From Rubripirellula tenax (GTDB taxonomy: Bacteria; Planctomycetota; Planctomycetia; Pirellulales; Pirellulaceae): DNA of 64,000 nucleotides. A program made the position numbers and the translations under genes. Each line of letters begins with the position of its first letter. The first letter of the stretch is position 1. Below the pieces are notes generated by a model, which ran no database searches, was not told where the DNA came from, and was given only the letters and a program-made list of their open reading frames with translations. The stretch covers positions 1,425,900 to 1,489,899 of the forward strand of contig NZ_SJPW01000001.1 in assembly GCF_007860125.1 (NCBI RefSeq), in the 5' to 3' direction. Of this stretch, positions 17,702 to 44,269 are shown in pieces.

Positions 17702-18907
17702 TTAGGCGGACGCTTCGTCGATCATCGATGTGTCCAAAGTCTTGACCTTGGGTGCTCGTTGCTTTTGTGTCTTTTTGGGGACCATCTCTTTCATCGATTC
17801 TTGTTTGCCGAAACATAGCAATCGGTCACCCGGTTCAAGCAGTCGTGAACGCTTCGGGTTAGGGATCACGGTCTTGCCCCGATAGAGAGTCAACACGTTG
17901 ATGTCTTTCTCGGTGAACGCAGCATCGGCGATCGTCATGCCGACGAAATGCGAGCCTTCGGGAACGAACAGTTCGCAGACCCCATAGCCGCGGCTGACGG
18001 TCAACCGTTGGCGGATGTCCATTTCGGGGAAGTCGACGTGAGCGGCACAGTAGTCCACGATCGCTCCGGCGATGTCCGTTTGCGTCGCCCGTTCGATGCC
18101 TTCTAACCCGGGTGAGCTGTTGACTTCCATGACTTGCGGCCCGTCCTTTCCTTCCAGCATGTCGACACCGGCGACGCGTAGCCCCATGATCTGTGCGGCC
18201 CGCAGGGCGGTCTCGCGATACTGGTCATCCAATTCGATCGCTTCCACCTGGCCACCGCGGTGAACGTTGCTGCGAAACTCGTCACCTTGGGCCACCCGTC
18301 GCATCGCACCGATGACGCGGTCCCCGATCACGAACGCACGGACATCACGTCCCTTGCTCTCGGCGACGAAACCTTGCACCAAAACGTTTTGCTTTGCCGT
18401 TTGCAGCGTTTCAATGATCGCTTCGGCGATTTTGATCGAGTCCGCTAGAATCACGCCGACACCCTGGGTGCCTTCAAGCAGCTTGATGATGACCGGCGCT
18501 CCGCCGATCCGCTCGATCGATGGAATCACATCGCCGCGATCACGGACAAAGGTGGTCCGTGGCATGCCGATGTGGTGGCGGCTGAGGATTTGCATGCTGC
18601 GAAGTTTGTCGCGGCTGTTCGAAATTCCTGCGGAACTGTTGGTGACAAAGACGTTCATCTGTTCCAGCTGACGAACGACGGCTGTACCAAAGTAGGTGAT
18701 GCTGGCACCGATCCGAGGCACCATCGCGTCAAATTCCGCCAACGGCTTGCCGCGGTAATACAAGTCTGGCTTGCCGGACTGTAAATCGATCGAGCACTTA
18801 AGCGTATTGACAACCGAGACTTTGTGCCCGCGATCTTTCGCGGCCGCGACGAGTCGCCGGGTGCTGTAGCAACGCGGAGCGGTTGAAAGGATTCCTAGCT
18901 TGATCAT
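17702..18907 (-). CDS. rimK: RimK-type ATP-grasp alpha-L-glutamate ligase fused to a C-terminal TrkA_C (RCK_C) domain
   Basis: A 401-residue protein. Residues 1-290 are RimK: an N-terminal PRIGAS motif, then ATP-grasp segments PVIIKLLEGTQGVGV, LVQGFVAESKGRDVRAFVIG, RVAQGDEFRSNVHRGG and VMEVNSSPGLEGIE (metal ligands). RimK ligates glutamate to ribosomal protein S6 or makes poly-glutamate. Residues about 300-375 are an added TrkA_C-like domain: CELFVPEGSHFVGMTIAD, INVLTLYRGKTVIPNP and LLEPGDRLLCFGKQE. This domain in K+ transport regulators senses ligands such as c-di-AMP; in this enzyme such sensing is inference. The tail is basic. It converges on the amidohydrolase gene and is divergent from the GNAT-nitrilase. 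Confidence 0.88.
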   Translation of the reverse strand: MIKLGILSTAPRCYSTRRLVAAAKDRGHKVSVVNTLKCSIDLQSGKPDLYYRGKPLAEFDAMVPRIGASITYFGTAVVRQLEQMNVFVTNSSAGISNSRDKLRSMQILSRHHIGMPRTTFVRDRGDVIPSIERIGGAPVIIKLLEGTQGVGVILADSIKIAEAIIETLQTAKQNVLVQGFVAESKGRDVRAFVIGDRVIGAMRRVAQGDEFRSNVHRGGQVEAIELDDQYRETALRAAQIMGLRVAGVDMLEGKDGPQVMEVNSSPGLEGIERATQTDIAGAIVDYCAAHVDFPEMDIRQRLTVSRGYGVCELFVPEGSHFVGMTIADAAFTEKDINVLTLYRGKTVIPNPKRSRLLEPGDRLLCFGKQESMKEMVPKKTQKQRAPKVKTLDTSMIDEASA

Positions 18908-19147
18908 AGCGTCACTTTCGCGAATTGAATTTGAAAGGACCGCCCGATCAACATGCCGAACAATCCTGGGCGAATCCTAACACTGAAACCATGTTTTGGG
19001 GAAATCACGTTCGCCCCGACATTCGACGAAGAGGGTGCCGGGATTGCCATGAAAGCAGCCTTGGAAACCAAATCCGCGAGAGTGGCTTGCTGATCGGCCT
19101 GGGTTGGCACTATCGTTATTCCGAATCGTCCCCTTGAAATCGATAGC

Positions 19148-20722
19148 GTGCTAACCGTGGAACCATTGAATCTTTCGGAATTTGAATGGAAAATCGTCGT
19201 CCGACCTCTGACGATGGACGATTTCGATGCGCTGTCGGCAATGGCTGAGCGGTGCTTTCCCGGTTTAGAAACGTGGAATCGCGACCAGATCGAGAGCCAA
19301 CTGAAGGTCTTTCCCGAAGGCCAAATTTGCATCGAAATTGACGGTAAGTTGGCCGCTTCGTCGTCCAGCCTGATCATGGAATATGACGCAGGATTGGAGT
19401 GGCACAATTGGAAAGCAATTTCCGATTCTGGATATATCCGCAATCACAAACCCAAGGGCGACACGCTTTACGGGATCGAAATGATGGTCGATCCAGAATT
19501 TCGTGGGATGAAACTTTCACGTCGAATGTATGACGCCCGCAAAGACCTTTGCCGGCGAAAGAATCTTTCCCAGATCATCATCGGCGGACGGATCCCCGGA
19601 TACCACAAGCACGCCGATAAGATGTCGGCGCGTGAGTACATCGATAGCGTTTTGGAAAAACACAATTACGACCCCGTGCTGACCGCGCAGCTTTCCAACG
19701 GGTTTATCGTCCGTGGTCTAACGCCCAACTACTTGCCGGCCGACGGCGAATCGTGTGGTTACGCGACCTACTCGGCATGGACAAATTTGGAATACGTCGC
19801 CGGTGCGAAACGTCGCTTCCATCACGTCATCGAACCGATCCGCATTTGCGTGGTTCAGTACCAATTGCGAACCATTCGAAAGTTCGAAGAATTTCATCAA
19901 CAGTGCGAATTCTTCATGGACACGGCGTCGGACTATAAGTGCGACTTTGTGTTGTTCCCGGAATTGTTCACGACCCAACTGTTGTCGTTGCCCAGCGTCG
20001 ATGCTTCGCGACCGGGACAGGCTGCGCGTCAACTTGCTGCGTTCACCCCACAGTACCTGGACATCTTCACCGAGATGGCGGTCAAGTACAACATCAACGT
20101 GATCGGTGGGTCCCAGTTCGTTGTCGAGAACGACACGCTGTACAACGTCGCCTATTTGTTCCGACGCGACGGATCGATCGGCAAGCAGTACAAAATCCAC
20201 ATCACTCCGAGCGAGCGTAAGTGGTGGGGTGTTAGCCCCGGTAAGAAAGTCGAAGTGTTTGACACCGATTGCGGTCCGATCGCGATCCAAATTTGCTACG
20301 ACATCGAGTTCCCCGAACTGACACGAATCGCGACTCAAAAAGGCGCCCAAATCGTCTTCGTTCCGTTCAACACGGACACTCGCCACGGTTACCTTCGCGT
20401 TCGTTACTGCGCCCAGGCACGTTGTATCGAGAACCACCTGTACGTCGCCATATCTGGATGCACGGGGAACCTGCCGTTCGTCGAAAACTCGGATATTCAC
20501 TACGCTCAGTCGGGCATTTTCACTCCGGCCGATGCCGAATTTGCTCGCGACGCGATCGCGGACGAATGCAACCCGAACGTCGAAACGTTGATCATCCACG
20601 ACTTGGATTTCGAACAATTGCGACGGCACCGCGATCAAGGATCCGTGCAAAACTGGAACGACCGTAAAACCGATATGTATCGGGTGGTCTATCAAGAGGA
20701 CGAAAAGACCTTCGAGGTGTAA
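19148..20722 (+). CDS. GNAT acetyltransferase-nitrilase (carbon-nitrogen hydrolase) fusion
   Basis: A 524-residue two-domain protein with a GTG start. Residues about 15-215 are a GNAT-type N-acetyltransferase ([20 protein letters not shown] is the acetyl-CoA loop). Residues about 235-500 are a nitrilase/amidase with the Glu-Lys-Cys triad: Glu in LFPELF, Lys in KQYKIHITP and Cys in [11 protein letters not shown]. The domain pair is a known bacterial architecture (Bacillus YhcX-like), thought to act on amino-acid-derived amides; no substrate is established here. The 240 bases upstream, shared with divergent rimK, hold no clear gene. Confidence 0.9.
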
Positions 20723-20732
20723 GCGATTCGCT

Positions 20733-21965
20733 TCACTCGGGCGAGGGCGGCAACTTCAACGCGATGACAATGGCTGCCGTCGCCGAAATAGCGCAAAGGC
20801 ACAACATCGCCGCGGGGTAACCCCAGGCGATTTGCAGTCGGCCGATCAATGTTGTCGACCACGCTTCACAAACGTTTGATGCAGCCATAAACGCAGTAAA
20901 CTGAGTCGCCGCCATCAGCGGGTCTGTCAGATTCATCAACCAATTGTACATCGCAACGGTAAAGCAACCGATCGTGATGGAAACGACCGTCAACGCAACC
21001 AACAGGGCGATGCCACCGGATCGATCGCTCGATAGATCCGCGATCGCGACGGCGGCAATTGCCAACAGATTCGCGATCACCGCACCCGTCAAAAGTCGAC
21101 GGTCCGCCCAACGGTGCGAAAATCGGCCCGCCAAGACGGAGCCGACAATCATGCCGCCGATAATCGCCGTCGATGTGAAACGCCCAACATCAAACTCGGA
21201 ATACCCACGGTCGACCAAGAACGGTCCTAGAATCGCTTCGGCCGATTTGAATGCGGCTGGGACCGTCAACGCGAACGCAAAGCCAAACCAAATGATCGGC
21301 TTTCTCGCGCCACGACGAAGTTGCCTCATCAATTGAAGCATCCGTTGGCCAATCGATTCCGCAACGCCGGCGGTCGCTGCGAGCTGTTTTTCCTTCGCGA
21401 ACGCCAACACGATCAATGAAAAGCTGACCAAACCGATCAGGACGGCGACTACTCCGTTGAATCCGATCCACCGCTCTAGCATCAACGAACCGCCGCCCAT
21501 GATGGCCCGACCGGTCAAGACGCCGCATTGCATCGCACCGTTAAGTGAACCACGTTCAGCCAGCATAGATTGCTGGATACAAAGCGAGTCGATCGCCACG
21601 TCCTGTGTCGCAGCGGCGAACGCGTGCGCCAACAACCACATCGAAACGATCGCAAAATCGATTCGCAAATCCAACCAAAACAACGGCAAGAGCGTCGCCC
21701 CCATCACGACTTGCGAAGCGATGATCGAATGCTTCAATCCCCATTTTGGCCCGCGAAACAAATCGACCAACGGTGCCCAAAGAAACTTCAGCGTCCAAGG
21801 CAAAATCAACATTGCCATCAGCCACGTGATCCGGTCCAGCGGCACTTCCATCGCCCGCAAGCGGGTTGGCAGCCCCAGCCAAATGAACCCGATCGGCGCG
21901 CCCTCGCTCAAGTAAAGCAAACCGAAAAGAACTTTGCGGCGACCGGTCGTGGCGAGGAAATCCAT
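20733..21965 (-). CDS. MFS transporter, AmpG/PAT-like
   Basis: A 410-residue protein with about 12 hydrophobic segments. LYLSEGAPIGFIWLGLPTRL near the start and LPWTLKFLWAPLVDLF in the second and third helices are typical of the AmpG muropeptide permease / acetyl-CoA transporter group. A charged central loop (residues about 190-220) separates two six-helix halves. The frame extends upstream to 22145, but the ATG at 21965 places the first helix normally. It is the last gene of the minus-strand ectB-NRPS-hydrolase run, 88 bases after the hydrolase, so it may export or import that pathway's compound. Muropeptide uptake is the alternative. Confidence 0.8.
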   Translation of the reverse strand: MDFLATTGRRKVLFGLLYLSEGAPIGFIWLGLPTRLRAMEVPLDRITWLMAMLILPWTLKFLWAPLVDLFRGPKWGLKHSIIASQVVMGATLLPLFWLDLRIDFAIVSMWLLAHAFAAATQDVAIDSLCIQQSMLAERGSLNGAMQCGVLTGRAIMGGGSLMLERWIGFNGVVAVLIGLVSFSLIVLAFAKEKQLAATAGVAESIGQRMLQLMRQLRRGARKPIIWFGFAFALTVPAAFKSAEAILGPFLVDRGYSEFDVGRFTSTAIIGGMIVGSVLAGRFSHRWADRRLLTGAVIANLLAIAAVAIADLSSDRSGGIALLVALTVVSITIGCFTVAMYNWLMNLTDPLMAATQFTAFMAASNVCEAWSTTLIGRLQIAWGYPAAMLCLCAISATAAIVIALKLPPSPE

Positions 21966-22053
21966 CCCATCAGTGGAACATATTTCCCGCGGCGTTGCAG
22001 CGTCGCCGCCGGCACCCGCGTTGCCTTTCCGAATCGAACCGAAATGCGATCGA

Positions 22054-22947
22054 CTAGGGAACCACTGTCGCGTCCTGGTCCGTCGAACGCGCCGGATTAC
22101 CGTTGGCTTGCGAAACGGCCATCCAACGCATCCGATTGGCGACATGCGTGACCAATTGCCGGCGGTCTTCGACCATCAACGCCACATGATCCATCGACTC
22201 GAAAAAGTGGCTGCTGATCCGGGGGTCGTCTTTCAGTGTTGGAAACATCGCCGCAAATTGCCCTGCATGATTGAAGTAATCGCCAACACCACCGGTGTAG
22301 ACGAAGTGCATCAGCGCACCGCGTGACGAAAGCGTTTTCAACTCCTCGATCGCCTGCGTTTGCGTCGGAAATTCGCGGACGTCCTTTCCGGGTTGCAGCG
22401 AAGTGACGACGGAACCGTCGTCGGTACGGCGGCGTTTCCAAAGCGTTCGCCACTTGTCCAGTCGCAACACTCGCGGCAAAAAATGACGCGTGAAGCGATA
22501 CCAGTGGTAAAGGAGTGTCGGATAGCCACACCCGTCCATGGCGACCACGCCCACAACGCGCTGGTCTCGCAGCGCCGCGTGGATCGAATCATCCGCTCCA
22601 CTGCATAGCCCGAACAGAACGAATTGGGTGATCCCGGCGTGCTCTTCGATCCAATTGATCGCTTGACGAATCTCGTCCGCCGCGCGATCGATCGATCGCC
22701 CACCAACACCGACGCCCAAACTTTCGCCGATACCCGACAAGTCGAATCGCAACGACGCGATGCCCAGACTTGAAAGCGACTCGGCCAAATCGACGTGCAA
22801 CCGATTCGGCCCCACGTGATGCAACATTCCCGGCGTGACCATGATTGCTGCGACGGACGAAAGCGTCGGTTCCGCCGCCACTCGCCAAACACCTAGCAAA
22901 TGCTCGTACTCACCGAACACAACGGCTTGGTTTGTTTCTCGTTTCAC
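22054..22947 (-). CDS. Alpha/beta hydrolase, similar to exosortase-associated hydrolase 1
   Basis: A 297-residue hydrolase with a GTG start overlapping the NRPS stop by 4 bases (GTGA). VTPGMLHHVGPNRLHVDLA, SLRFDLSGIGES and FGLCSGADDSI (GxCxG-Ser elbow, i.e. G-L-C-S-G) define the fold; the catalytic Ser is in CSGAD and a late His is in ESMDHVALM. The pattern recalls hydrolase 1 of exosortase-A-associated gene sets, where GPQ.RvGsHrqf stands at the same place. It may unload or edit the carrier-bound product of the neighbouring NRPS-like protein; this is inference from coupling. Confidence 0.75.
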   Translation of the reverse strand: MKRETNQAVVFGEYEHLLGVWRVAAEPTLSSVAAIMVTPGMLHHVGPNRLHVDLAESLSSLGIASLRFDLSGIGESLGVGVGGRSIDRAADEIRQAINWIEEHAGITQFVLFGLCSGADDSIHAALRDQRVVGVVAMDGCGYPTLLYHWYRFTRHFLPRVLRLDKWRTLWKRRRTDDGSVVTSLQPGKDVREFPTQTQAIEELKTLSSRGALMHFVYTGGVGDYFNHAGQFAAMFPTLKDDPRISSHFFESMDHVALMVEDRRQLVTHVANRMRWMAVSQANGNPARSTDQDATVVP

Positions 22948-25592
22948 TGGCGTGACTCCGCATCGCTAAAGTGCTTTGTGATCGCTTGAAAGCTTTCCGG
23001 CGACGAGAACGCGCTCTCGGTGTACCGCGAATCGTTCCACGCCGCGACATCGCGAGTTTCGATCACATGCGTTTGATTCGATTTCCAAGTCGCGGCAGAC
23101 GGTGACTCGTCCCACCGGTCGGTCAGTACGATCGTGAACGAGTCGCCGAGCGTTCGGGTGGGATCCAAGTGAATCGCACCCAAGCTATTCCGTTTGCGCG
23201 TCGTCATCACTTGGCCGAAGCTCTGATCGATCGCACCGCGGGATCGGACTTGGTTGAATCGAGTCAAGGACGTCAGTGCGGCATGGTGAAAGCCATCCGT
23301 CGTGGAAAGGAATTGCTCGCCGCAAAGGACGGGATCCCACATCACCACGCTGTCAAAGGTCTCGCGTGGCATCGTGGCTGCGATCGTCGCACCGAAACGC
23401 AAACCGACCGCCGAAATGCATTCCACACCCGAACGCGTCGCGAGAAAAGTTTTTGCGTCGGCCAGATTTTGGCGCATTCGATCGATAGTCAACTTGGCGC
23501 AGTCGCCTTCGGAATTTCCCGTCGAAGCGTAATCAAACCGCAACACTTCATGACCGGCTTTGCAGAGTTGGATCGCCAATTGTTGGAGATTTCGATACCC
23601 GCGTGCATACTCGTGTCCGATCGAATGACACAACACGATCGCTCGCTGGGATGATCGGTTTCTTGGTGAGTAGCGAACCGCGTAAAGGCGATCACCGTCA
23701 CTGGTGAAGTAGTCCGCGTCGATCATCGGCAAATGATGCCGATGCACTAAAATGTCGTCGTCGTCACCGTTGGTCACTTGACCGTCGGTTTGTTCAAGGT
23801 GACGAGCCGCACTCGCGACCGTCGGATTGGCAAAGAAATCGCGTACGGGCAACTCAATATTTTTCTCGGTTGTCAATCGAGCCACAATTTGTGTGACCAA
23901 CAGCGAGCTGCCACCGAGCAAAAAGAAGTCGTCGTGGATACCGATCTCAGGAAGATGGAGCACGTCTTGCCAAAGTTCGACCAAGTATCGCTGCATCGGC
24001 GTTTGTGGCGCGACGTACGAGTCGTCACGTGGAACCACACTCTCAGCCGGCGGGGGCAATCGTCGCCGGTCGATTTTCCCGTTGATGGTCTTGGGAAACG
24101 AATCCAAGAACACATAGCGAGCAGGCACCATGTAGGCCGGCAGCTTCTGGCGCAAAAACGAAGCGACCTCGTTTGCCGAAACCTGTGCCGGCCCCACGGC
24201 AAGGTAAGCGATCAAAAACTTCTTGCCGTCGACTCCGTCGTAACTGACCAACGACTCCAAAACTGACTCACATTCGTTGACAACAGCTTCGATCTCGGCT
24301 GGTTCGATCCGGTACGACCCCAACTTGATTTGGTGATCGAGTCGTCCGCCGAAATCGATGTTCCCATCGGGCAAGAACCGGGCGACGTCACCGGTCCGAT
24401 AGAGTCGCCGCATTTCGCCATTGATCTCAGTCCGGATGAATGCGGCGTCCGTCAAGTCGGGCCGATTGTGATATCCCTTCGCAAGCGCCGGGCCGCCCAA
24501 AAAAAGTTGCCCCGTTTCACCGACATCCAGCACCCGTCGTTGATCGTCCAGCACAAACGCTTCGTAGCGTTTCATCGGCTTTCCGATCGGCATGTTGGCG
24601 GCATCGAATTGATCATCGGGAATGAAGACCGTCGCGCTGACCGTTGCTTCGGTCGGACCATATGCGTTGCACCAAAGTACGTCGCGGTCGCAAAGCTGTT
24701 GCCAACGACGGTAGTGTGCCACCGACACTTTTTCGCCGGTAACGATCATCAAGCCGATCGACGGCGGGATCCGCTCGCCCGTGGCAACCATCAAATCGAC
24801 CCATTGGTGCCAGTATGCCGTGGCAAGATGGATCGCAGTCACGCCGAACCGATTGACCAAAGTCGACAACTCGTTGCGTTCATTCGCCCGCCCGCGAGGA
24901 CGAACGACCACCGCCCCGCCCGTCAGCAAAGGCGGGAAAATCTCCTCGATCGCAATGTCAAAATTCAGTGTCGAAAACTGCAACGTGCGATCGTCTTGAT
25001 TGATCTTGTAACAATCGATATCGGCGTAGCAGTACGTCGCCAGCGCGGCGTGTTGGATCTCGACGCCTTTTGGTTTTCCAGTCGAACCCGACGTGTACAT
25101 GATGTACGCCAAGTCATCGGGTGCGATCGATGGAAACGAAACCGATTCAATGTTAGCGTCCAACCAAAGAGACGGTTCACAATCGATCCACTCGCACGGC
25201 GCCGCTTCACCACCCACCAAGTTCTTGCCTATCGACGCTTGGTAGTGCGGATGTCCCAAGATGGTCCGGATCGCGGCGTCGCCGACCATGTAGGCAAGTC
25301 GGTCGACAGGATATTCGGGATCTAGCGGAACGAACACGGCGCCCAACTTCATGATCCCGATCATCGCCGCGATGGCTTCGGGCGAACGATCGACGCACAT
25401 ACCGACACAATCGCCGGCCGTGATACCTGATGCTTTTAATCGAGCAGCGATCGCGACCGCCATCGCATCCAGCTCCGCGTACGAGAGCGTCCCGTCTTCG
25501 GCGATGACCGCGGTGCGATCCGGCGTCTGCGCCAATTGACGCGACCACAGTGTCGGAAAGGCGACCAGAGCTTCGTGTTCCGTTGTCGTCAT
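22944..25592 (-). CDS. Single-module NRPS-like protein: adenylation - PCP - Ser-less alpha/beta hydrolase
   Basis: An 882-residue protein. Residues about 10-510 are an adenylation domain with cores YIMYTSGSTGKPKGV (A3), FDIAIEEIF (A4), NAYGPTEAT (A5), LYRTGDVARFLPDGNIDFGG (A7/A8) and KTINGKIDRRRL (A10 Lys). Residues about 530-605 are a carrier domain with DDFFLLGGSSLL, the Ser taking phosphopantetheine. Residues about 630-870 are an alpha/beta hydrolase-like domain (LCHSIGHEY, LRFDYASTGNSEG) whose elbow reads GLRFGA, with Arg where the nucleophilic Ser should be, as in exosortase-associated hydrolase 2. There is no condensation domain. It overlaps ectB by 4 bases upstream and the hydrolase downstream. 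The hand-aligned A-domain pocket starts D-I-E. Confidence 0.85.
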   Translation of the reverse strand: MTTTEHEALVAFPTLWSRQLAQTPDRTAVIAEDGTLSYAELDAMAVAIAARLKASGITAGDCVGMCVDRSPEAIAAMIGIMKLGAVFVPLDPEYPVDRLAYMVGDAAIRTILGHPHYQASIGKNLVGGEAAPCEWIDCEPSLWLDANIESVSFPSIAPDDLAYIMYTSGSTGKPKGVEIQHAALATYCYADIDCYKINQDDRTLQFSTLNFDIAIEEIFPPLLTGGAVVVRPRGRANERNELSTLVNRFGVTAIHLATAYWHQWVDLMVATGERIPPSIGLMIVTGEKVSVAHYRRWQQLCDRDVLWCNAYGPTEATVSATVFIPDDQFDAANMPIGKPMKRYEAFVLDDQRRVLDVGETGQLFLGGPALAKGYHNRPDLTDAAFIRTEINGEMRRLYRTGDVARFLPDGNIDFGGRLDHQIKLGSYRIEPAEIEAVVNECESVLESLVSYDGVDGKKFLIAYLAVGPAQVSANEVASFLRQKLPAYMVPARYVFLDSFPKTINGKIDRRRLPPPAESVVPRDDSYVAPQTPMQRYLVELWQDVLHLPEIGIHDDFFLLGGSSLLVTQIVARLTTEKNIELPVRDFFANPTVASAARHLEQTDGQVTNGDDDDILVHRHHLPMIDADYFTSDGDRLYAVRYSPRNRSSQRAIVLCHSIGHEYARGYRNLQQLAIQLCKAGHEVLRFDYASTGNSEGDCAKLTIDRMRQNLADAKTFLATRSGVECISAVGLRFGATIAATMPRETFDSVVMWDPVLCGEQFLSTTDGFHHAALTSLTRFNQVRSRGAIDQSFGQVMTTRKRNSLGAIHLDPTRTLGDSFTIVLTDRWDESPSAATWKSNQTHVIETRDVAAWNDSRYTESAFSSPESFQAITKHFSDAESRQ

Positions 25593-26938
25593 TGTCCCAA
25601 GGTACCCATCGACGCGGATCCACCGACCGACGAAATCGATCCCAAGTCAAGTTGCGGCATCACTTGTAACGCTTGATCGGATGGGGAAGTCTCTTCGCCG
25701 ACAACTCGGCACAGTACGGCATCCACGACACGCAGTCCTTCAAACAACAACGGCCGCTCGATTGTCAGTGCGGGCATGAACTTCAGCACTTGGTCGTCGG
25801 CGCCGGATGCTTCGATCAACAATCCGTCTTGGAAGCATTGGCGAATCACCTTCGCGGCCAGGTCGCCACGCTTGACGTCCAGGCCCCAAATCAATCCGCG
25901 ACCGCGATAACAAAAGTTCTGTGCCGCGAATCGTTCGCAGACTTGTTTCAACCACGACTGAATCACTTCGCCTCGACTGGCGATTTGGGATTCGAAGTCT
26001 GCATCGGCCCAGTGTTTCAAGACGGCGTTGGCGGCGACGAATGCCAAGTTGTTGCCGCGGAACGTGCCGGTGTGTTCGCCCGGTTTCCAAGCATCCAACG
26101 GGCGGCGGATCAGCACCAACGACATTGGCAAACCGCCACCGATCGACTTCGACAAACAAACCACATCCGGTTCAAGCCCCGCGTCTTCGAAGCTGAAGAA
26201 CTTTCCGGTGCGTCCGTTGCCGACCTGGATGTCGTCGATGATCAGCAAGATTTCGTGTTGTCGACATATCTCAGCCACGCGTCGTAGCCATTGCCGACTT
26301 GCGACATTGATGCCGCCTTCGCCTTGTACCGTTTCCAAAATCACTGCCGCTGGAACGGGAAGCCCGCTGCTGTTGTCCGCCAACATTTTGGCCAACAGAT
26401 CGGCCGTGTCGACGTCGCCCAGGTAACCATCGAAAGGTAAATGAGTCACGTTGTTTCGCGACCCATAGAATTCGCTGTGATAGTACTTGTTGCCCGTCAA
26501 GGCGAGTGATCCGAGCGAGTGCCCGTGATAGGCATTTGTGAACGCAACGATGTGGCTACGGTTGGTTTGTTTGCGAGCCAGCTTGATGGCTGCTTCCACC
26601 GCGTTGGTTCCGGTTGGGCCGGTGAATTGAACCACGAAGTCCATTCCGCGAGGCTTCAAGATCAATCGCTCGAACGTGTCAAGAAAGTCGACCTTCGCCT
26701 TCGTTGCGATGTCCAGCGAATGCTGGATTCCGTTTCGCGAAACGTAGTCCAACAATGCGGCCTTCGCGACCGGGTGATTGTGGCCGTAATTCAACGAACC
26801 GGCGCCGCAGAAAAAGTCGATGAATGTCTTGCCCGACGCGTCGGTCAGCGTCGAGCCGACGGCTGTGTCGAATACCGCCGGAAACAATCGACAGTATCCA
26901 CGTACGTTTGATTCGATATTGCCGGTGGCTTCAGACAT
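25589..26938 (-). CDS. ectB: Diaminobutyrate--2-oxoglutarate aminotransferase (class III, EctB/Dat-like)
   Basis: A 449-residue class III PLP aminotransferase that should make L-2,4-diaminobutyrate from aspartate semialdehyde with glutamate. The match to EctB is close: FIDFFCGAGSLNYGHNHP, FTGPTGTNAVEAAIKLAR, TNAYHGHSLGSLALTGN, ETVQGEGG, DDIQVGNGRTG and LSKSIGGGLPMS (PLP Lys), FRGNN. The Lys loop is one residue shorter than the usual SKSISGYGLPM. No ectA or ectC is present nearby. Instead the gene overlaps an adenylation/carrier protein by 4 bases, so the diamine probably feeds that protein. It is the first gene of the run. Confidence 0.87.
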   Translation of the reverse strand: MSEATGNIESNVRGYCRLFPAVFDTAVGSTLTDASGKTFIDFFCGAGSLNYGHNHPVAKAALLDYVSRNGIQHSLDIATKAKVDFLDTFERLILKPRGMDFVVQFTGPTGTNAVEAAIKLARKQTNRSHIVAFTNAYHGHSLGSLALTGNKYYHSEFYGSRNNVTHLPFDGYLGDVDTADLLAKMLADNSSGLPVPAAVILETVQGEGGINVASRQWLRRVAEICRQHEILLIIDDIQVGNGRTGKFFSFEDAGLEPDVVCLSKSIGGGLPMSLVLIRRPLDAWKPGEHTGTFRGNNLAFVAANAVLKHWADADFESQIASRGEVIQSWLKQVCERFAAQNFCYRGRGLIWGLDVKRGDLAAKVIRQCFQDGLLIEASGADDQVLKFMPALTIERPLLFEGLRVVDAVLCRVVGEETSPSDQALQVMPQLDLGSISSVGGSASMGTLGQ

Positions 26939-30963: not shown

Positions 30964-32583
30964 CTAAGCGTCAATCCACCCCAAAAACTGCCAAAAACGG
31001 TACAGCCACGGTGATTGCCAAGGCGACGAGAGCGCCGTCGACATCGAAAAGATACTCATTGCTAGCAATGCCCACACCGACCGCCGGCCGAGCGTCGAAC
31101 GAACACACGCGTCGATGGCGACCGCAACCATTGCTAGCCAAAGCGGCGCAAACCACAACAACCAGCGTAAACACGTGCTAACCCCACCGTAATTGCGATC
31201 AATCATCGGTCGGAACAGATAGAAAGCAAAACAGACCAAGGTTGCTAGCAAGATCGCGGCAACCATCCGCCGGTATTCGGGCGGCCCCGTCCGCAGCGAC
31301 ATCGCAAAACCAAAAGGCAGCAGACACCAGATCGGCGTCAACGAAAAAAGACCGTAATGACCGAAGGTCATATGGAAAAAGTAGATCCATCGCGACGGTT
31401 CGCCGCGGTCGACACCGCGGCGACGCCCGTCTTGCCAGTAGCTTCCCGGGTACTCGTACCAGTCATCCCAGCGCGAAAGCTGCCATCCGGTTTCGTCACG
31501 AACCAGGGCGAACGATCGGTCGTCGGCAAACACGCGGTAACGCTTCGATTCGTCCGAGGGCTTGATTGCGAACGTCGCTTCCGCCGGTACCAACCCGCGA
31601 TCGACGATCACCCGCTGAACGTCTGTGGCGAGTTGTTGGTCGGGGGATTCGGTGGAAGCTTCAAAGTGGGCGACCACAGCGCCGACGCCGCGATGGGCAT
31701 AGGGCGGACGGAGACTTTCGTGCGCAATCCACGTCGTGGCGAAGAACGCGACCGCGACGACCGCTACACCGCCCGCCATCGGAATCACGGATCGACGATC
31801 CAACCAAACGGCAAGCACGCCCCAGAAAACGGCCATCGAAAGTGCTGGCAACTCGTTGGCCGCCGCGAATGCCGCCAACATCCCCATCGCGCACCAGGAG
31901 CACGCGCTGACTCGCAGCGAGTCGCCACGTTGGGCGCCCGCGATCCGGTCCCCCGCCGACAAATAGATCGCCATGGCCGCCGCCATCGACGCGGCGGCGG
32001 GCAAGTGGTTGTTCAACGAGACCGTGAACGGCAACATCATCGTCCCGAAACAAGTCGCCGCGACGGACATCACCTGCCCTTCGACCGACTCGCAAACGCG
32101 ACGGATCACCGCGGTGGTCGCAACCAGAAACACCGCCAACATGGGCAGGTTCACCAGCGCTAAGATCAACCGGGGCACATAGATCGGCTGGGCCGTCATC
32201 GTCATGCCGGTACTCAGGTGCACCAACTTGTAAACGCCAGCGACCATTGTCGGAAACAGCGGCGGCTTGCTGCTGTAGTAGTGCAACTTGCCATCCGCCC
32301 CCGTATGCCGGACCTTGTCGATCGTCCCCCATGGACGACGGTTGCGGTGGATCGGATTGGCAATTTCGATTTGACGGTCGATCGCATAGGTCCCGTCTTC
32401 GACCAGGCTGGCGATCGTACACCAGCGACTGCGATCATTCGCCGACAGAAACGCGGTGTCGCCTTCGGCGCTGGTCACCGTCGCGATTCGACCAGCCGCG
32501 ATCGCCACCGAGACCAGGATCATGGTGCCCAGAATCGTTCGAATCATTCGGTGATGGTCCGTGTCGTTGCGCATGTTAGTCAT
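30964..32583 (-). CDS. Polytopic membrane protein, probable GT-C type glycosyltransferase
   Basis: A 539-residue protein with about 10 hydrophobic segments. The first extracytoplasmic loop has SANDRSRWCTIASLVEDGTY and then HYYSSKPPLFPTMVAGVYKL; the SKPPLFP block resembles the HPPL segment of PMT/ArnT-like GT-C enzymes, which use polyprenyl-phosphate sugars. A soluble loop occurs near residues 300-390. The ATG overlaps the stop of the upstream GT2 by 4 bases. That pairing suggests that the GT2 makes the lipid-linked sugar and this protein transfers it; this is inference. No catalytic proof is visible. Confidence 0.6.
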   Translation of the reverse strand: MTNMRNDTDHHRMIRTILGTMILVSVAIAAGRIATVTSAEGDTAFLSANDRSRWCTIASLVEDGTYAIDRQIEIANPIHRNRRPWGTIDKVRHTGADGKLHYYSSKPPLFPTMVAGVYKLVHLSTGMTMTAQPIYVPRLILALVNLPMLAVFLVATTAVIRRVCESVEGQVMSVAATCFGTMMLPFTVSLNNHLPAAASMAAAMAIYLSAGDRIAGAQRGDSLRVSACSWCAMGMLAAFAAANELPALSMAVFWGVLAVWLDRRSVIPMAGGVAVVAVAFFATTWIAHESLRPPYAHRGVGAVVAHFEASTESPDQQLATDVQRVIVDRGLVPAEATFAIKPSDESKRYRVFADDRSFALVRDETGWQLSRWDDWYEYPGSYWQDGRRRGVDRGEPSRWIYFFHMTFGHYGLFSLTPIWCLLPFGFAMSLRTGPPEYRRMVAAILLATLVCFAFYLFRPMIDRNYGGVSTCLRWLLWFAPLWLAMVAVAIDACVRSTLGRRSVWALLAMSIFSMSTALSSPWQSPWLYRFWQFLGWIDA

Positions 32584-33620
32584 TCGACGGTGTTGATTCG
32601 CCCGTGCTCATCCGACTGGGGCAATCGCTTTGCGACACTGTAAACGCTGGTCCGATTATCCGTTCGCGACACGATCAGTTCCGCCAGCAATCCTGCCAAC
32701 ATGAATTGGGCGCCCAGCAAGACCGAAAAGATGCAGTAGTAAAAAATCGCGGTCTCGTGCAGATGCAGATCCGCCATCGAGTCCGATAATCGCGAAATCA
32801 CCCAACGTGCCGTCAAGTAAATCATGCCGACACCACCGGCCGCAAAGAAGAACATTCCGAAACCGCCGATCAAGTGCAACGGTCGCCCCGGAAAGCTGGT
32901 CAATAAATAGATCGTGATCAGATCCAGAAAGCCTTTGATCAGTCGCGACACGCCGTACTTTGACCGCCCAAATTTCCGGGCGTGATGCAGCACTTCGATT
33001 TCGCCGACGCGCCAACCGCGGGCGGCGGCCAAGACGGGAACGAACCGATGTCGTTCGCCGTACAGCCGCACTTCCTCGAAGATCTCGCGGCGATACGCCT
33101 TGTACCCGCAATTGTGATCGTGCAACTTCACCCCCGTCATCCGGCTGACCAAGGCGTTGAAGACGCGGCTGGGAAAGACCTTGTGCCAAGGATCGTGCCG
33201 AACCCGTTTCCATCCGCTGACGACGTCGTAACCTTCGTCCATCTTGGCCAAGAAACGTGGAATCTCGTCAGGATCGTCCTGCAAATCCGCATCCATCGTG
33301 ATTGCAATCTCGCCCGTCGCGGCGGCGAACCCGGCTTCCAGCGCGGCCGCTTTTCCAAAGTTACGTCGGAACCCGATCGCCCGGGTTTGATCGTCGACGG
33401 CTATCAACGACTGGATCACTTGCCACGAATCGTCGGTCGATCCGTCATCGACAAAGACAATTTCCCGATCGATACCACTGGCATCGCAAACTTGAACAAT
33501 CCTGGCATGCAACTTCGCAAGCGATTCCGATTCGTCCAACGTCGGAATCACGAACGACACACGTCGATTCCGATCGCTATCCTCATCGAGTTTGGTTGCG
33601 GGTGATGACAGGTCGCTCAA
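32580..33620 (-). CDS. Family 2 glycosyltransferase, GtrB/DPMS-like, with C-terminal membrane helices
   Basis: A 346-residue enzyme. FVIPTLDESESLAKL begins the GT-A fold, FVDDGSTDDSW and TMDADLQDDPDEIP (DxD) bind the nucleotide sugar, and GRSKYGVSRLIKGF is the family segment before two C-terminal transmembrane helices. It should transfer a sugar from a nucleotide donor to polyprenyl phosphate at the inner membrane. The first usable start is TTG at 33620; GTG codons slightly downstream are alternatives. It is coupled to the GT-C-like gene. The 186 bases upstream (33621-33806) contain nothing I can assign. Confidence 0.87.
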   Translation of the reverse strand: MSDLSSPATKLDEDSDRNRRVSFVIPTLDESESLAKLHARIVQVCDASGIDREIVFVDDGSTDDSWQVIQSLIAVDDQTRAIGFRRNFGKAAALEAGFAAATGEIAITMDADLQDDPDEIPRFLAKMDEGYDVVSGWKRVRHDPWHKVFPSRVFNALVSRMTGVKLHDHNCGYKAYRREIFEEVRLYGERHRFVPVLAAARGWRVGEIEVLHHARKFGRSKYGVSRLIKGFLDLITIYLLTSFPGRPLHLIGGFGMFFFAAGGVGMIYLTARWVISRLSDSMADLHLHETAIFYYCIFSVLLGAQFMLAGLLAELIVSRTDNRTSVYSVAKRLPQSDEHGRINTVE

Positions 33621-33806: not shown

Positions 33807-36800
33807 TTAGCGGCCCCACGCGATGTCGTCACCTTCGATCAATAGGTAGCGACCGTCGACGGCTAAATCTGAATACGACTGTTCTCTGCCATCGGGCCAG
33901 CGGACCGAAACGGTGACATCGTCACCAGCGGCCCCTAGACCGAAATGCACGACTTGTTCGTTGCGACCTTCGTAACCATCGCCGGTAGCAACCAAGGTTG
34001 TTCGTTGCAACGAACCTGTGTGAATCGTCACGGATGCTCCGATGGCGTCGCGTTCCGACGCTGTCCCTGCTAGTTCGAATTGGATCCAGTGGTTCATTGT
34101 CTGCGTTCGGTTTTCCAATAGTTGCATGGGTGCCATCAAATCAGCGACCACAGCGTCCATTTTCCCGTCCCGGTTGTGGTCCAACCGGATCACACATCGG
34201 CCCAACTGCGGCTTAGTCCAGAACGAGTCATCGGCATGGTCGGCCGGTTCGAAGTGGTTACCGCGATTGATCAACAACTGCGGCAACATTTTAAACGGCA
34301 CGTCGATGTGCGAAAGATCGTCGATGTGCCCGTTCGCGATCATGACATCCAAAAACGAATCATTGTCCACATCGATGGCTTGTGCGCCGAAACCTAGAAC
34401 TCCTTCGCTGACTCGATCCAATTGGTACTGGGGCGCGGCATCACGGTAACTGCCTAGCGACGACTGCAAATACAAATTCCACCACTCGTCGATCCAATTC
34501 GTTACCATGAAATCGGACAATCCGTTGTTGTCAAAGTCACCCGACGCGACACCCATGCACGCGCTGGCTTCGCCACGGGAACTGAATGCGCATCCCATCG
34601 CGACGGCCTTGTCGTCGAATTCGATAGCGGCCGATGGGACACCGGCGTTGGAAGCATCGCTTTGGCTTCGCGACCAAACTTGGTTCGGACGCGTATCGTT
34701 GGCGACAAACATTTCCAAGCCCGGCTGACCGTCAAGATCGGTAACCACCAAACCCAACCCCGGATGGTTGCTGCCCCCGTCCAACGCGACCTCGTCAAGA
34801 TCGCCCGCCGCTGATTGGACCCAAACGCGATCCATCGCAGAACGAAACATCAAAGGCCCGGGGTAGACCAATAAGAATCCTTCGGGCGTGACATCGACGG
34901 GTTCAAAAATCTTCGGATCGTCAACGTGATTGACTTCGATGATATCAGGGATCGCGTCACCGCTCACATCGGCGATTGCGACCGCCATTGTAAAGTCAGA
35001 CGGATTCTGATTGGCCCGATCGGTTGCTTGCCGAAAGGTTCCATCACCCTGGTTGATCATCCATTGGTTGACGCCCAAATTGCCGACCACGAGATCGGGG
35101 AAACCGTCCTGATTCAGATCACCAGCCGTCACGCACATACAGTATCCGTCGTCGCCTGCGTTGCTGGGCTCGGTCACCGCGACGAATCGCTCGGGTAGCC
35201 GACGAAACAATTGATTGGACAACTTTGCCTGGGCACCCGGCGGGTCACCATCGCCCTGTCCGCAATAGAGATCCGCCCATCCGTCACAGTCAAAATCGAA
35301 TGCCGCAACACCAGCGCCGAACGCTTGATAGATTTGAAAGTTCTTGGTTCGCGGAACCGCAGCATTGACGTATGTGAAATCCAATCCCAACTCGGCGGCG
35401 ACGGCCACCAAACTTGGTCGAACTGCATGGGCGGTCCGAACACCTGGGTTAGGCGCGGGCGACGTCGGACCATCCGTTGCCAATCGATGCAAACGCAACT
35501 CCGACGGCAACGCGAATTCCGACGGTTCAAGGCCCGCCAAACGCCTTCGCATTTGATCGGATGCTGGTTCGTCACGCAGCCGCGTTAATCGCGATGGGAC
35601 CCCAACGGCGATTTCCGAATCGGGATGACGCGACGCGACGATCCTCAACCATGCTGCGGCTTGTTGGTTTAGACCCAGCCATTCCAAGTCGTCGACCAGG
35701 TCGCTGCCGGCTCGCAAATCATCGGGATTCCCCTGACCGATCGCACCACCCGCTTGCGACGCGGCGATCAAACGCCCCAGTCGTTCGTCAACCGACTCGG
35801 CAGCTTTGACGTCACCGATCTGAATCAATGACGCAGACAAACGCTCGTGAAGGATGTGGTGCGTCGTGTCTCGCTTGAGTGCTTCCAAGTAGCATCGCAC
35901 GGCACTCCGGTGCGTTCCCTTGCTCGTTTCATAGTCACCTTTTGCCATCCAATACTGGGGCACGCTTTCGACATCGGCGTTCGTTCGTGAAAACAATGCT
36001 TTTAGATCCTCGAACTGCTGCAACTCGGCCAGCGATGCGGCCAGAAACGCGTAGGCAACCGGATCGACGGAACGGGGGTTCGACGCAGTCCACTGCGTCA
36101 CCAAATCGGCCGCTTCACGGGGACGCTTTTCACCGAGCAACCCAAGCACTCGGGCCAGCGGTCCCTCCTGGATCGATTCGGCCAAGGAAAGGTCCGTCGG
36201 AGTTTGCGTCATCGACCACGGCACCGATACCTGCAGCAATGATCGCAATTCGCTTTCGGTCACTTCGCCCGAATCCAGTAGCGGCGTAAGGACTTCCGCG
36301 GCCTCGTACCGCCAACCCACACGATTCAAAAAATTGGCTAGCTTGTGCCGAATCATCGCCACATCGGGCAGGCGACTCATGACGGCGTAGTACTTTTCTT
36401 TGGCCGGATCCACTTGTCCGATCGCCGCCAACCAATCCGCCGACTGCCCCGCCGCAGCGATGCCATAGTTGGGGTCGTCGATCGGGATCCCGTCCAACAT
36501 CGCCGCCGCCGAAGCGAGCGAGCCGTGGCGACTTTCGATCTGGGCGGACAAAAAGATCGCGGCGGAGTGCCCGGGTTGGCGAATCAAAATTTGCCTCAGC
36601 GCGTTTTGCGCTGCGTCGGGCTTGCCCACTTCCATCGCTTGCTGGGCGAGCATCAGCAGTTCGTCAATCGAAGCTCCGACGTCTTCGGTATCCTCGGGGA
36701 CCGTGGCCGTGACTTCCGTGGGCGCTGGCGGCAAACGCTGCTCGACCGAAGTGTCTCGCGGTGGAGTGGCGGTTTTGTTGCTTTTTTTCTGGCATCCACC

Positions 36801-36899
36801 CGCCACCAAAGCCCCCAGTGAGGCAATCGTAATCACCGTTAAAAGCTGCCGGACCGACGTTGCGACACGCAGTCGCGGGGACGAAGTGTGTGGGCACAT
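33807..36899 (-). CDS. TPR - FG-GAP - UnbV/ASPIC (CRTAC family) lipoprotein, copy A
   Basis: About 1030 residues. ATG 36899 gives a type II signal peptide with lipobox LVAGGC; the longer frame to 36971 does not. Residues about 60-420 are TPR-like helical repeats. Residues about 520-920 are an FG-GAP/VCBS beta-propeller with many Asp-rich calcium-type loops (DFDCDGWADLY, DLNQDGFPDLVVGNLG, DVSGDAIPDI, DNDSFLDVMIANGH, DHNRDGKMDAVV). The C-terminus is an UnbV/ASPIC domain (GASVTIHTG, VVHFGLGAAGDDVTVSVRWPDG). Found on the cell surface in planctomycetes; function unestablished. A paralogue lies at 41192-44269. Confidence 0.85.
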   Translation of the reverse strand: MCPHTSSPRLRVATSVRQLLTVITIASLGALVAGGCQKKSNKTATPPRDTSVEQRLPPAPTEVTATVPEDTEDVGASIDELLMLAQQAMEVGKPDAAQNALRQILIRQPGHSAAIFLSAQIESRHGSLASAAAMLDGIPIDDPNYGIAAAGQSADWLAAIGQVDPAKEKYYAVMSRLPDVAMIRHKLANFLNRVGWRYEAAEVLTPLLDSGEVTESELRSLLQVSVPWSMTQTPTDLSLAESIQEGPLARVLGLLGEKRPREAADLVTQWTASNPRSVDPVAYAFLAASLAELQQFEDLKALFSRTNADVESVPQYWMAKGDYETSKGTHRSAVRCYLEALKRDTTHHILHERLSASLIQIGDVKAAESVDERLGRLIAASQAGGAIGQGNPDDLRAGSDLVDDLEWLGLNQQAAAWLRIVASRHPDSEIAVGVPSRLTRLRDEPASDQMRRRLAGLEPSEFALPSELRLHRLATDGPTSPAPNPGVRTAHAVRPSLVAVAAELGLDFTYVNAAVPRTKNFQIYQAFGAGVAAFDFDCDGWADLYCGQGDGDPPGAQAKLSNQLFRRLPERFVAVTEPSNAGDDGYCMCVTAGDLNQDGFPDLVVGNLGVNQWMINQGDGTFRQATDRANQNPSDFTMAVAIADVSGDAIPDIIEVNHVDDPKIFEPVDVTPEGFLLVYPGPLMFRSAMDRVWVQSAAGDLDEVALDGGSNHPGLGLVVTDLDGQPGLEMFVANDTRPNQVWSRSQSDASNAGVPSAAIEFDDKAVAMGCAFSSRGEASACMGVASGDFDNNGLSDFMVTNWIDEWWNLYLQSSLGSYRDAAPQYQLDRVSEGVLGFGAQAIDVDNDSFLDVMIANGHIDDLSHIDVPFKMLPQLLINRGNHFEPADHADDSFWTKPQLGRCVIRLDHNRDGKMDAVVADLMAPMQLLENRTQTMNHWIQFELAGTASERDAIGASVTIHTGSLQRTTLVATGDGYEGRNEQVVHFGLGAAGDDVTVSVRWPDGREQSYSDLAVDGRYLLIEGDDIAWGR

Positions 36900-37457
36900 A
36901 GTGGGATATTTCGAACGAACCGTGAAAGAAGCTTGCGGAAACCGTTGTATCCGATCGAAGCCCGTCATCAATTTGCCAATTTAATTTGCGTTCTACCGAC
37001 AAACCGGCGCCCGACAAACCGGCGAACAACGAAAAGACCCCGAACCGATGGAGACGCCCACGCACCCCACGCAAATCGTTGCCCAACTTAGACCACTCGG
37101 TGGCGAACCAGAGGAGCCGCAATTCCAAAAAAGCCAATGAATTGCGACATTGCGCTAAGGAATTGCGACTCAACCTGAGTGATTTCGCCCGGTCTCTGAA
37201 AGCGGTACCAAAAGGACTTCGTCGACATGCCGGCCCGACCGCTGGCGAAAAACACCCCCTCCACAGGACCAAGCAATACAGCCCCTCCCAGCTCCCTTAT
37301 CTTCGCGATTGCGCCGCAATCCGTTCCCTAAAGCATGGACATTCGTTTTAAGATTCACTACTATGTACCAATATGTACGGGCATTCAGTTTCACGGTTTT
37401 CACGTTTGACTTGAAATCGCCTTCAATTCTTGGTGTTTTCTTTCTCAGGAGTTTTTG
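36900..37457. other. Gene-free divergent region between CRTAC copy A and the DUF1559 gene
   Basis: This 558-base stretch separates two divergent genes and must hold both promoters. I see no convincing coding frame. It contains a 14-bp direct repeat (separately listed), an AT-rich 3' part near 37320-37440, and a clear AGGAG just before the ATG at 37458. No confident -35/-10 pair could be assigned by eye. Confidence 0.5.
36996..37024. repeat. 14-bp direct repeat in divergent promoter region
   Basis: CCGACAAACCGGCG occurs at 36996-37009 and again at 37011-37024, with one base between copies (15-base period). The location between two divergent genes would allow a regulator-binding role, but replication slippage is as likely. 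Confidence 0.6.
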
Positions 37458-44100: not shown

Positions 44101-44269
44101 GCTTCCCCGTCGCGGAATCGCCTTTTTCCTCGGAAGAAGAAGTCCGCTGGGAATCCGAAACCGTTTCGATGGGGTCCGATCGACTGCATCCAAAGACGGC
44201 AAGCAATACCGTCATCGCGACATGCGCTCGAAAAAACGCAACAGATCGGCCCAGTTTAGGAGTTAGCAT
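41192..44269 (-). CDS. TPR - FG-GAP - UnbV/ASPIC (CRTAC family) lipoprotein, copy B
   Basis: A 1025-residue paralogue of copy A. The N-terminus MTVLLAVFGCSRSD (residues about 19-32) is an atypical lipobox with Phe before Gly-Cys. A Thr/Pro/Glu-rich stretch containing repeated TRTEP follows, then TPRs (residues about 85-400). The propeller of FG-GAP loops comes next (DFDRDGNPDLYFAQGAS, DWNQDGFDDLYVANLG, DVTGDGLPDL, DYNNDGAVDIVVTNGH, DLDRDGRQDLVITH). The UnbV/ASPIC end is IGAVATIEAGG and VVHFGLGAQSQVDLLTIQWPDG. It is the first gene of a two-gene unit with the heptahaem cytochrome. Confidence 0.87.
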   Translation of the reverse strand: MLTPKLGRSVAFFRAHVAMTVLLAVFGCSRSDPIETVSDSQRTSSSEEKGDSATGKPMTSPEPTRTEPTRTEPPVETADKNQAVDAAIGSGRLSDAAAMLKRMLVRDPGDASILFRLAQVLKDLGDVRGAIDLLGEIPSDDPQAGVAAFGQAADWCMEIEDWGGAAKRYRQILSWYPDANVARRPLAYIYNRQGRRYEAARLIRSLCQAGDVREDELQSLISVPDAIYHRAETVASLAAGDRPYLPIGNTGRARQAYTEDDLATTARLLRAELDRGDAPNWVWAFYGRVVTEMQDEAATNWWLENVTSDVRPHPEYWVAIGTLQVNDGKFREAIGAFLRAVAEEPSDNRTIRRLRQCFLSINENDSAEFWGLRFQANTLLRRDTQKIAGASPPDAELFREISGRLERLHRRIESVMWRSIAMLYDDQAGESLADLNAIRLQLIQQQMSFPTPAELAGEIDIDQFPASDEKLASLRIEVPEDSGRTFEATDANFVDVAAAWGCDHTFQPGAKDIRSGFAIYQQIGGGVAVADFDRDGNPDLYFAQGASDPPEFETRASNVMVRNLDSLLSDITELCGATETSFSTGVTAGDWNQDGFDDLYVANLGPDLLLINNGDGTFRKSDWRLASDSIHGIDSSAAIADVTGDGLPDLITVRYVDDPSDFERPVPNEQGEVEKTFGPLLYRAVSDRVYVNTPGGRGRPSLFSSDDEARATGLGIVVADLVGGPGNDVFVGNDVQRNQLWTRSKEPDSVAGSPVWEEVAMLRGCAFNRDGSPTASMGIAAADYDFNQQLDLHIANFAKESVSLYLGQNGGFRDRSLAYGLTDPSRPHVGFGSQPIDYNNDGAVDIVVTNGHVDAVAGDTAPLNQPFQLFANVGETFEPIVAGKSGSYATTPHIGRAMATVDLDRDGRQDLVITHMGQPSAVLVNQSSETGHYLDLELVGVDCERLPIGAVATIEAGGRKSRQWLVGGNGYLCRNEPVVHFGLGAQSQVDLLTIQWPDGTESQFHDLPIDRRIVIVQGDESWFVQ

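Follow-up and report, generated by a model that had tools for sequence, protein, structure and literature searches.

The nearest named system in which a carrier protein is combined with a pair of hydrolase-like proteins is the exosortase-A-associated gene set (TIGR03098–TIGR03101): it comprises an AMP-forming ligase, a pyridoxal phosphate (PLP) enzyme resembling the decarboxylase LysA, a carrier, and two α/β-hydrolase-like proteins, here called Hyd2 and Hyd1, which carry Arg and Cys, respectively, at the nucleophile elbow. A fused Hyd2-Hyd1 protein also accompanies a carrier in loci built on an amino acid--[acyl-carrier-protein] ligase (aa:CP ligase). To our knowledge, there is no settled function for either the exosortase-A-associated ligase and hydrolases or the aa:CP-ligase loci. 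Here, we describe a cluster of four genes in Rubripirellula tenax (Planctomycetota; Pirellulaceae), all on the minus strand at 20733–26938 of a 64,000-nucleotide stretch of contig NZ_SJPW01000001.1 (the window). Three of the genes constitute a cassette, encoding an EctB-type transaminase, a protein with adenylation (A), peptidyl carrier protein (PCP) and Hyd2 domains (A-PCP-Hyd2), and Hyd1. We propose, with a probability of roughly 0.45, that the cassette makes L-2,4-diaminobutyrate (Dab), loads it onto the carrier and transfers it via Hyd1 and Hyd2, with a surface sugar as the likeliest acceptor.

The cassette resembles the exosortase-A set in having an AMP-forming ligase, a PLP enzyme, a carrier, Hyd2 (Arg) and Hyd1 (Cys) in the same order, and it probably works in a like manner. 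It differs in that its PLP enzyme is an EctB transaminase rather than the LysA-like decarboxylase of TIGR03099; in that its ligase and carrier belong to one protein, the ligase being an amino-acid A domain that scores 210.1 bits with TIGR03098 against a cut-off of 592.35; and in that Hyd1 (62.6 against 168.45 bits for TIGR03100) and Hyd2 (62.3 against 202.75 bits for TIGR03101) are below the cut-offs for their families. Given that it fails these curated tests, the cassette is not to be filed with the exosortase-A set. A first-pass annotation of this DNA had nevertheless pointed to exosortase-A loci as a parallel, and this was well founded: exosortase-A hydrolases 1 and 2 that exceed the curated cut-offs likewise have Cys and Arg, respectively, at their elbows and stand in the order carrier-Hyd2-Hyd1, and because the same pair occurs in those loci, the parallel holds, even though the window proteins score below the family thresholds.

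The cassette is like the aa:CP-ligase loci in charging a carrier with an amino acid, and in three of them (L172, L182 and L183) the fused Hyd2-Hyd1 lies in the same gene run. Their loading enzyme, by contrast, is like an aminoacyl-tRNA synthetase (specifically, a seryl-tRNA-synthetase-like ligase), and their genes for an acyl-CoA dehydrogenase, DUF1839 and a glycoside hydrolase of family 2 (GH2) were not seen with the cassette. In these same three loci, the fused hydrolases are in line with an acyl carrier protein (ACP), the acyl-CoA dehydrogenase, the ligase, DUF1839 and GH2, whereas L171 has DUF1839, GH2 and the fused hydrolases. The Dlt system of D-alanylation, in which a surface polymer gains positive charge by receiving an amino acid from a ligase and a carrier, is similar in outline, the cassette presumably using Dab in place of D-Ala. 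CmaE, SyrC and CouN7, aminoacyl- or acyltransferases that serve NRPS systems, are proteins of α/β-hydrolase fold with a Cys nucleophile, and we know of no partner with an Arg elbow for them. They may be likened to Hyd1, by description only, in that they remove an acyl group from a thiolation (T) domain; according to the available text of PMC8748450, CouN7 and CmaE take acyl groups off T domains, and CmaE shuttles between them.

A recurrent cassette of three genes

Successive genes of the cassette overlap by 4 bases (25589–25592 between EctB and A-PCP-Hyd2, and 22944–22947 between A-PCP-Hyd2 and Hyd1), and a gene for a major facilitator superfamily (MFS) transporter follows 88 bases after Hyd1, if it starts at the ATG at 21965; an alternative, longer frame from the ATG at 22145 would overlap Hyd1. 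A Pfam scan of the A-PCP-Hyd2 protein gave AMP-binding, AMP-binding_C and PP-binding above cut-off, i.e. an A domain and a PCP of the nonribosomal peptide synthetase (NRPS) type, but no condensation domain (PF00668). Around the phosphopantetheine attachment site, Gly560, Gly561, Ser562 and Ser563 are invariant in seven of seven aligned proteins. The feature coordinates are collected in Table 1.

Table 1. Features of the cassette and the adjoining transporter gene (positions in the window)
Feature	Coordinates	Strand	Remarks
EctB-type L-2,4-diaminobutyrate:2-oxoglutarate transaminase	25589..26938	-	449 aa; first cassette gene; TIGR02407
A-PCP-Hyd2 protein	22944..25592	-	882 aa
Adenylation domain (residues 1-515 of 882)	24048..25592	-	PF00501 and PF13193 over cut-off; code DIEHITAVSK
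PCP domain (residues 526-605)	23778..24017	-	GGSS with phosphopantetheine serine; PF00550, 57.6 bits, residues 536-599
Hyd2, C-terminal alpha/beta-hydrolase-like domain (residues 606-882, ~277 aa)	22944..23777	-	elbow Arg732, codon 23397-23399
Hyd1, stand-alone alpha/beta hydrolase	22054..22947	-	297 aa; GTG start; elbow G-L-C-S-G, Cys115, codon 22603-22605
MFS transporter (AmpG/RhtX-like)	20733..21965	-	PF07690 (MFS_1); neighbour outside the conserved cassette

A tblastn survey of 29 related loci, of which 26 are from planctomycetes and 3 from gammaproteobacteria, found EctB, A, PCP, Hyd2 and Hyd1 in this order and on one strand in 27. Taken part by part, the A, PCP and Hyd2 domains are present in all 29, and EctB and Hyd1 in 28 each; the locus that lacks EctB (L094) is on a contig that begins inside the A domain, and in L056 and L095 the start of the contig truncates EctB. 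In four distinct loci (L036, L079, L080 and L095), Hyd2, Hyd1 and A-PCP share one open frame. EctB, A-PCP-Hyd2 and Hyd1 are, therefore, a real cassette that recurs in the Pirellulaceae and in gammaproteobacteria. The first-pass annotation had described the gene overlaps, the 88-base gap and the absence of a condensation domain exactly as found here, and had let its reading stand or fall with the conservation of the neighbours, which the cassette genes display. It had also discussed the locus in terms of planctomycete pathways; the system extends beyond that phylum: cassettes occur in seven gammaproteobacterial loci (L037, L038, L056, L174, L216, L217 and L219), and these rule out a system restricted to planctomycetes. 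The EctBs of L037, L038 and L219 branch among those of planctomycetes, suggesting transfer between the phyla.

The loci were gathered in several ways. A scan of genome contigs for EctB yielded 22 loci, four of which also hold an adjoining A-PCP-Hyd2 gene, namely, L036 (Rhodopirellula maiorica), L037, L038 (Leucothrix) and L056. A Hyd1 profile matched 51 of 241 genomes of the family at E ≤ 1e-20, 33 of them at E < 1e-90; 27 of these 33 were read (the window and 26 loci, with L078 being the contig of L036), and G206, G208, G212, G324, G325 and G328 lie outside this reading. In a sample of 294 genomes from across the phylum, 14 matched at E ≤ 1e-15, and the R. tenax genome was the only one in the high-scoring range. 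Within the genus, the profile detects the cassette in 4 of 22 genomes, and the adjoining AsmA-like gene is present in all 22. The cassette follows this gene in G342 and G344 and was not found beside it in the six cassette-free genomes that were read (L227–L232); in G343, the cassette has a short contig to itself, with the AsmA-like gene elsewhere, and, therefore, its position is not comparable.

The predicted substrate

The window EctB, a class-III aminotransferase, scores 618.8 bits with TIGR02407, against a curated cut-off of 552.2, and thus passes as a diaminobutyrate transaminase. In a tree of 50 EctB sequences, from which that of L056 was left out as too short, the cassette EctBs (32 rows) make up one side of a single branch with support of 100/99.

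The ten positions of the binding code in the window A domain read DIEHITAVSK, and the pattern D[IV]EH[IVL]TAV[ST]K holds for the window and for each of the 29 related loci, except that the first two positions are missing in L094; it is seen again in L174, L216, L217, L219 and the first of the two A domains of L175. This code resembles DLEHNTTVSK, which we take to be a Dab code, at 7 of 10 positions, although text searches did not find the latter in print. The columns were chosen using PheA numbering. In other A domains among the loci examined, the same columns give DILQLGM[VI]WK, and DILQLGMIWK is reported as a glycine sequence in the available text of PMC12283262; that a glycine code emerges from these columns indicates that their choice is sound. 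The EctB family and the A-domain code, thus, point to the same amino acid, Dab, insofar as sequence can tell. These observations bear out earlier suggestions that the locus makes a diamine amino acid and loads it on a carrier, as an EctB that exceeds the TIGR02407 cut-off and an A domain plus PCP with one conserved code would do; by profile, the transaminase is also of the diaminobutyrate type, so that the alternative raised, a preference for another substrate such as ornithine or GABA, is not borne out at that level.

EctB is shared with the ectoine pathway (EctABC), from which the cassette departs in its other components and in that Dab is seemingly carrier-bound. Nothing in the whole genome exceeds the cut-off for EctA (the best match to TIGR02406 is 22.2 bits against 120.6), as had been claimed. 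The accompanying claim that ectC is missing stands to the extent that PF06339 has no match in the genome, but this is a weak absence, because none of 14 control genomes matched either. An ectoine-like or siderophore pathway, served by the MFS protein as its transporter, is most improbable, and we have rejected it. Such a pathway would account for an ectoine-type EctB and for the 91.7 bits that the transporter scores with TIGR02718 (RhtX/FptX); that score and the 108.6 bits with TIGR00901 are, however, both below cut-off, the transporter gene is not conserved, EctA and EctC are wanting as described, and no siderophore gene was recognized among the recurring neighbours, not all of which are profile-annotated. 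The transporter also fails as the exporter that the first-pass annotation had entertained: a tblastn search of the available flanks of the 29 related loci, some of them short, did not find its gene in any, and in the close relative G342 its place is occupied by a gene for a PP2C phosphatase.

The Cys/Arg hydrolase pair

Both hydrolase-like proteins deviate from the canonical elbow, G-x-S-x-G. In Hyd1 it reads G-L-C-S-G, with Cys replacing the nucleophilic Ser, and in Hyd2 it is [GA]-x-R-x-G, with Arg in the same position (Arg732 is invariant in seven of seven proteins). These features were followed through 70 loci, consisting of 34 with cassette parts, 14 of a second kind in planctomycetes, 7 NRPS loci from gammaproteobacteria, 6 exosortase-A loci, 3 further loci from gammaproteobacteria (L182 and L183 among them being of the aa:CP-ligase type), 4 on plasmids and 2 other planctomycete loci. 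The Hyd1 Cys is present in 69, spanning several contexts, with the 70th being L056, which lacks Hyd1 and where the match is its Hyd2. The Hyd2 Arg is present in 68, the exceptions being L173 (Gly) and L113 (none found, as the contig ends), although this count was taken from the best-scoring domain with a non-Cys elbow, a choice that leans towards Arg. Among the 34 loci with cassette parts, Arg is found in all and Cys in 33, i.e. in every one that holds Hyd1. A C-terminal His is at the expected place of Hyd1 in all 59 rows that have a residue in this column; 11 rows have none. Hyd1 has matches to Hydrolase_4 and Abhydrolase_1, both sub-threshold, and its predicted model, with a predicted local distance difference test (pLDDT) score of 67.6, matches α/β hydrolases in the PDB (Foldseek best E 4.8e-11, TM 0.59). 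Comparison of the sequences establishes, then, the gene set, the EctB family, the carrier, a single conserved code, and elbows with Cys in Hyd1 and Arg in Hyd2.

Because Arg cannot act as a nucleophile, Hyd2 is probably not a hydrolase and is likely to be a pseudo-hydrolase. A Cys nucleophile, on the other hand, fits acyl transfer. In the mechanism that we favour, EctB would convert aspartate semialdehyde to Dab, and the A domain would adenylate Dab and load it as a thioester onto the adjoining PCP. Hyd1 would then take the aminoacyl group onto the Cys of its Cys-His centre and pass it to an acceptor instead of water, whereas Hyd2, as a catalytically dead partner, would dock the carrier or shape the acceptor site. 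The acceptor would most likely be an amine or hydroxyl of a sugar destined for the cell surface, which would gain positive charge as in D-alanylation. From the features set out above, we infer that Dab is the substrate, that transfer prevails over hydrolysis, and that Hyd2 and a sugar acceptor have these parts. Were this true, planctomycetes would have a way, needing neither ribosome nor tRNA nor condensation domain, of attaching a cationic amino acid to an acceptor. As a three-gene cassette with Dab as its predicted substrate, it is the simplest member of the group that combines a carrier with the hydrolase pair, and so it allows a direct test of chemistry common to the exosortase-A and aa:CP-ligase groups.

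It is distinctly improbable that Hyd1 and Hyd2 are only editing enzymes, clearing a mis-loaded carrier in the manner of type II thioesterases, with the acceptor enzyme encoded elsewhere. Hydrolase-like sequence and fold beside a carrier would suit this role, and genes for type II thioesterases often accompany those for NRPSs; yet the fusion with A-PCP in four loci, the constant Cys/Arg pairing and the want of any other widely recurring neighbour make an optional editing function unlikely.

The pair is also found in exosortase-A, glycine-code NRPS and aa:CP-ligase loci, and in each of these contexts the substrate is likewise carrier-bound. All six exosortase-A loci have the Cys elbow in Hyd1 and the Arg elbow in Hyd2, and share the order carrier-Hyd2-Hyd1 with the cassette; these features emerged from the present comparison and lie outside the curated definition of the set. 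Hyd1, Hyd2 and the decarboxylase pass the exosortase-A cut-offs in L187 and L190, as does the ligase of L190; Hyd1 passes in L186, the Hyd2 of L185 reaches 167.0 of 202.75 bits, and L188 and L189 were assigned to the set by resemblance. For the small carrier of L187, the matches to acyl-carrier families are sub-threshold. The carrier-Hyd2-Hyd1 order does not hold everywhere, as L178 encodes the pair upstream of its NRPS genes.

Of the 14 planctomycete loci of the second kind, 11 (L101–L107, L109–L111 and L116, all Pirellulaceae) show a synthase with an aminotransferase domain, followed by a protein with condensation, A and PCP domains (C-A-PCP), Hyd2 and Hyd1; the glycine code is found in 11 of 11 scored A domains, and the synthase of L116, which was read in detail, is a polyketide synthase (PKS). 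The gammaproteobacterial locus L175 (8903–15396) encodes a dimodular NRPS, A-PCP-C-A-PCP-Hyd2, with its condensation domain, followed by Hyd1; since its first A domain has the cassette code and its second the glycine code, it may make Dab-Gly. L220 (1153–6847), counted among the 34 loci with cassette parts, encodes a PCP-Hyd2 protein with no A domain and Hyd1 alongside; no cassette-type A domain is beside them, and a separate nearby protein carries an A domain with another code, DIWEVTADDK. A Hyd2/Hyd1 stretch similar to that of L220 is found on contig C426 of G694.

Two further readings turn on these contexts. Hyd1 could be a carrier-to-carrier shuttle like CmaE and SyrC, delivering Dab to an NRPS encoded elsewhere in the genome. 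We consider this improbable, as the cassette has no recurring neighbour that encodes a partner NRPS, and the pair comes after the final module encoded, the point of chain release, in L175, L176, L177 and L179, and in those planctomycete NRPS-type loci that show the synthase and both hydrolases; its merits are the Cys elbow of α/β-hydrolase type in Hyd1, the movement of CmaE between T domains described in the available text of PMC8748450, the direct joining of a cassette-code module to a glycine module in L175, and the upstream position of the pair in L178. The second reading, which is doubtful, extends our proposal: the Cys/Arg pair would be a general, hitherto undescribed device for aminoacyl and peptidyl transfer, adopted independently by several unrelated loading systems (A-PCP with EctB, the exosortase-A ligase with ACP, NRPS/PKS assemblies ending in glycine, and the ligase resembling aminoacyl-tRNA synthetases with ACP) to put amino acids on surface polysaccharides, and the EctB cassette would be its cationic branch, placing Dab on cell-surface glycans.

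Acceptor and genomic neighbourhood

A surface sugar is suggested by the neighbours of three gammaproteobacterial cassettes, all from one order (four genomes searched). In L174, L216 and L217, a polysaccharide deacetylase gene comes directly after the cassette; genes for Wzx-type flippases precede it in L174 and L217 (the contig of L216 ends inside EctB), and L217 has an additional DegT-type aminotransferase gene. No polysaccharide-type neighbours were recognized by eye in L037, L038 and L219, which are also gammaproteobacterial. The hydrolase pair is beside polysaccharide genes on a Variovorax plasmid as well. In the available text of PMC3584217, Bcam1334, a protein named as TIGR03100, belongs to an exopolysaccharide cluster reported to be essential for biofilm formation in flow chambers, and Iyer et al. 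(2010), in the available text of PMC2922099, proposed that the aa:CP-ligase loci serve to ligate an amino acid onto a surface sugar.

A small diffusible product seems rather unlikely. Here, Hyd1 and Hyd2 would release Dab from the PCP thioester as a lactam (3-amino-2-pyrrolidinone) or as a small-amine conjugate, to serve as a solute, a signal or part of a metallophore. Diamino acyl thioesters can indeed cyclize, but cyclization needs no two conserved hydrolases, and the same pair serves carriers in glycine-code NRPS and exosortase-A loci, where this lactam is impossible. Likewise, although a single module with no condensation domain and planctomycete loci with no recognized common polysaccharide neighbour would be expected for such a product, the window transporter is not conserved, and polysaccharide genes flank the cassette in the three gammaproteobacteria.

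Several observations count against transfer of Dab to a surface sugar. The Pirellulaceae cassettes, that of the window included, show no recognized recurring polysaccharide family on clustering of their neighbours, most of which are not profile-annotated; it is for this reason that we can only infer the acceptor. In the window, the nearest polysaccharide-type gene encodes a family 2 glycosyltransferase (GT2) and is ~5.6 kb upstream of the cassette, and the cassette's own link to sugars comes from three genomes, all of a single order. Text searches did not find the Dab code in print, so that the code step is no independent proof. As to the hydrolases, those of the window are far under the TIGR03100 and TIGR03101 cut-offs, the operon of L056 lacks Hyd1, and the Hyd1 His column cannot be aligned in any of the six exosortase-A loci. 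Finally, the models are of middling confidence (pLDDT 67.6 for Hyd1, as above, and 65.0, with a predicted template modelling score, pTM, of 0.60, for the natural Hyd2-Hyd1 fusion of L036), and, therefore, no interface between Hyd1 and Hyd2 is claimed.

When flanking proteins, most of them lacking profile annotation, were clustered over 30 loci, no neighbour was common to all: the widest families each reach five loci, with no fixed position or strand, and further families recur in close relatives. The cassette, thus, travels mostly alone. A phosphopantetheinyl transferase (PPTase) gene adjoins it in seven loci, following it in L037, L038, L056 and adjoining also in L219, with another PPTase in L087, L099 and L100; the identity was confirmed by profile in L037 and L099.

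Other genes of the window deserve brief mention. At 17702–20722, a RimK-type ATP-grasp ligase fused to a TrkA_C domain is encoded beside a fusion of a GCN5-related N-acetyltransferase (GNAT) and a carbon-nitrogen hydrolase, and both genes also flank the cassette in G342. At 30967–33620, the GT2 gene overlaps a gene for a 539-aa protein with no Pfam match, and this pair is upstream of the gene that precedes the cassette, whose AsmA-like label is our own reading, as it has no Pfam match. Further upstream, at 33810–36971 and 41195–44269, two large proteins with tetratricopeptide repeat (TPR), FG-GAP and UnbV/ASPIC domains are encoded ~4 kb apart on the same strand.

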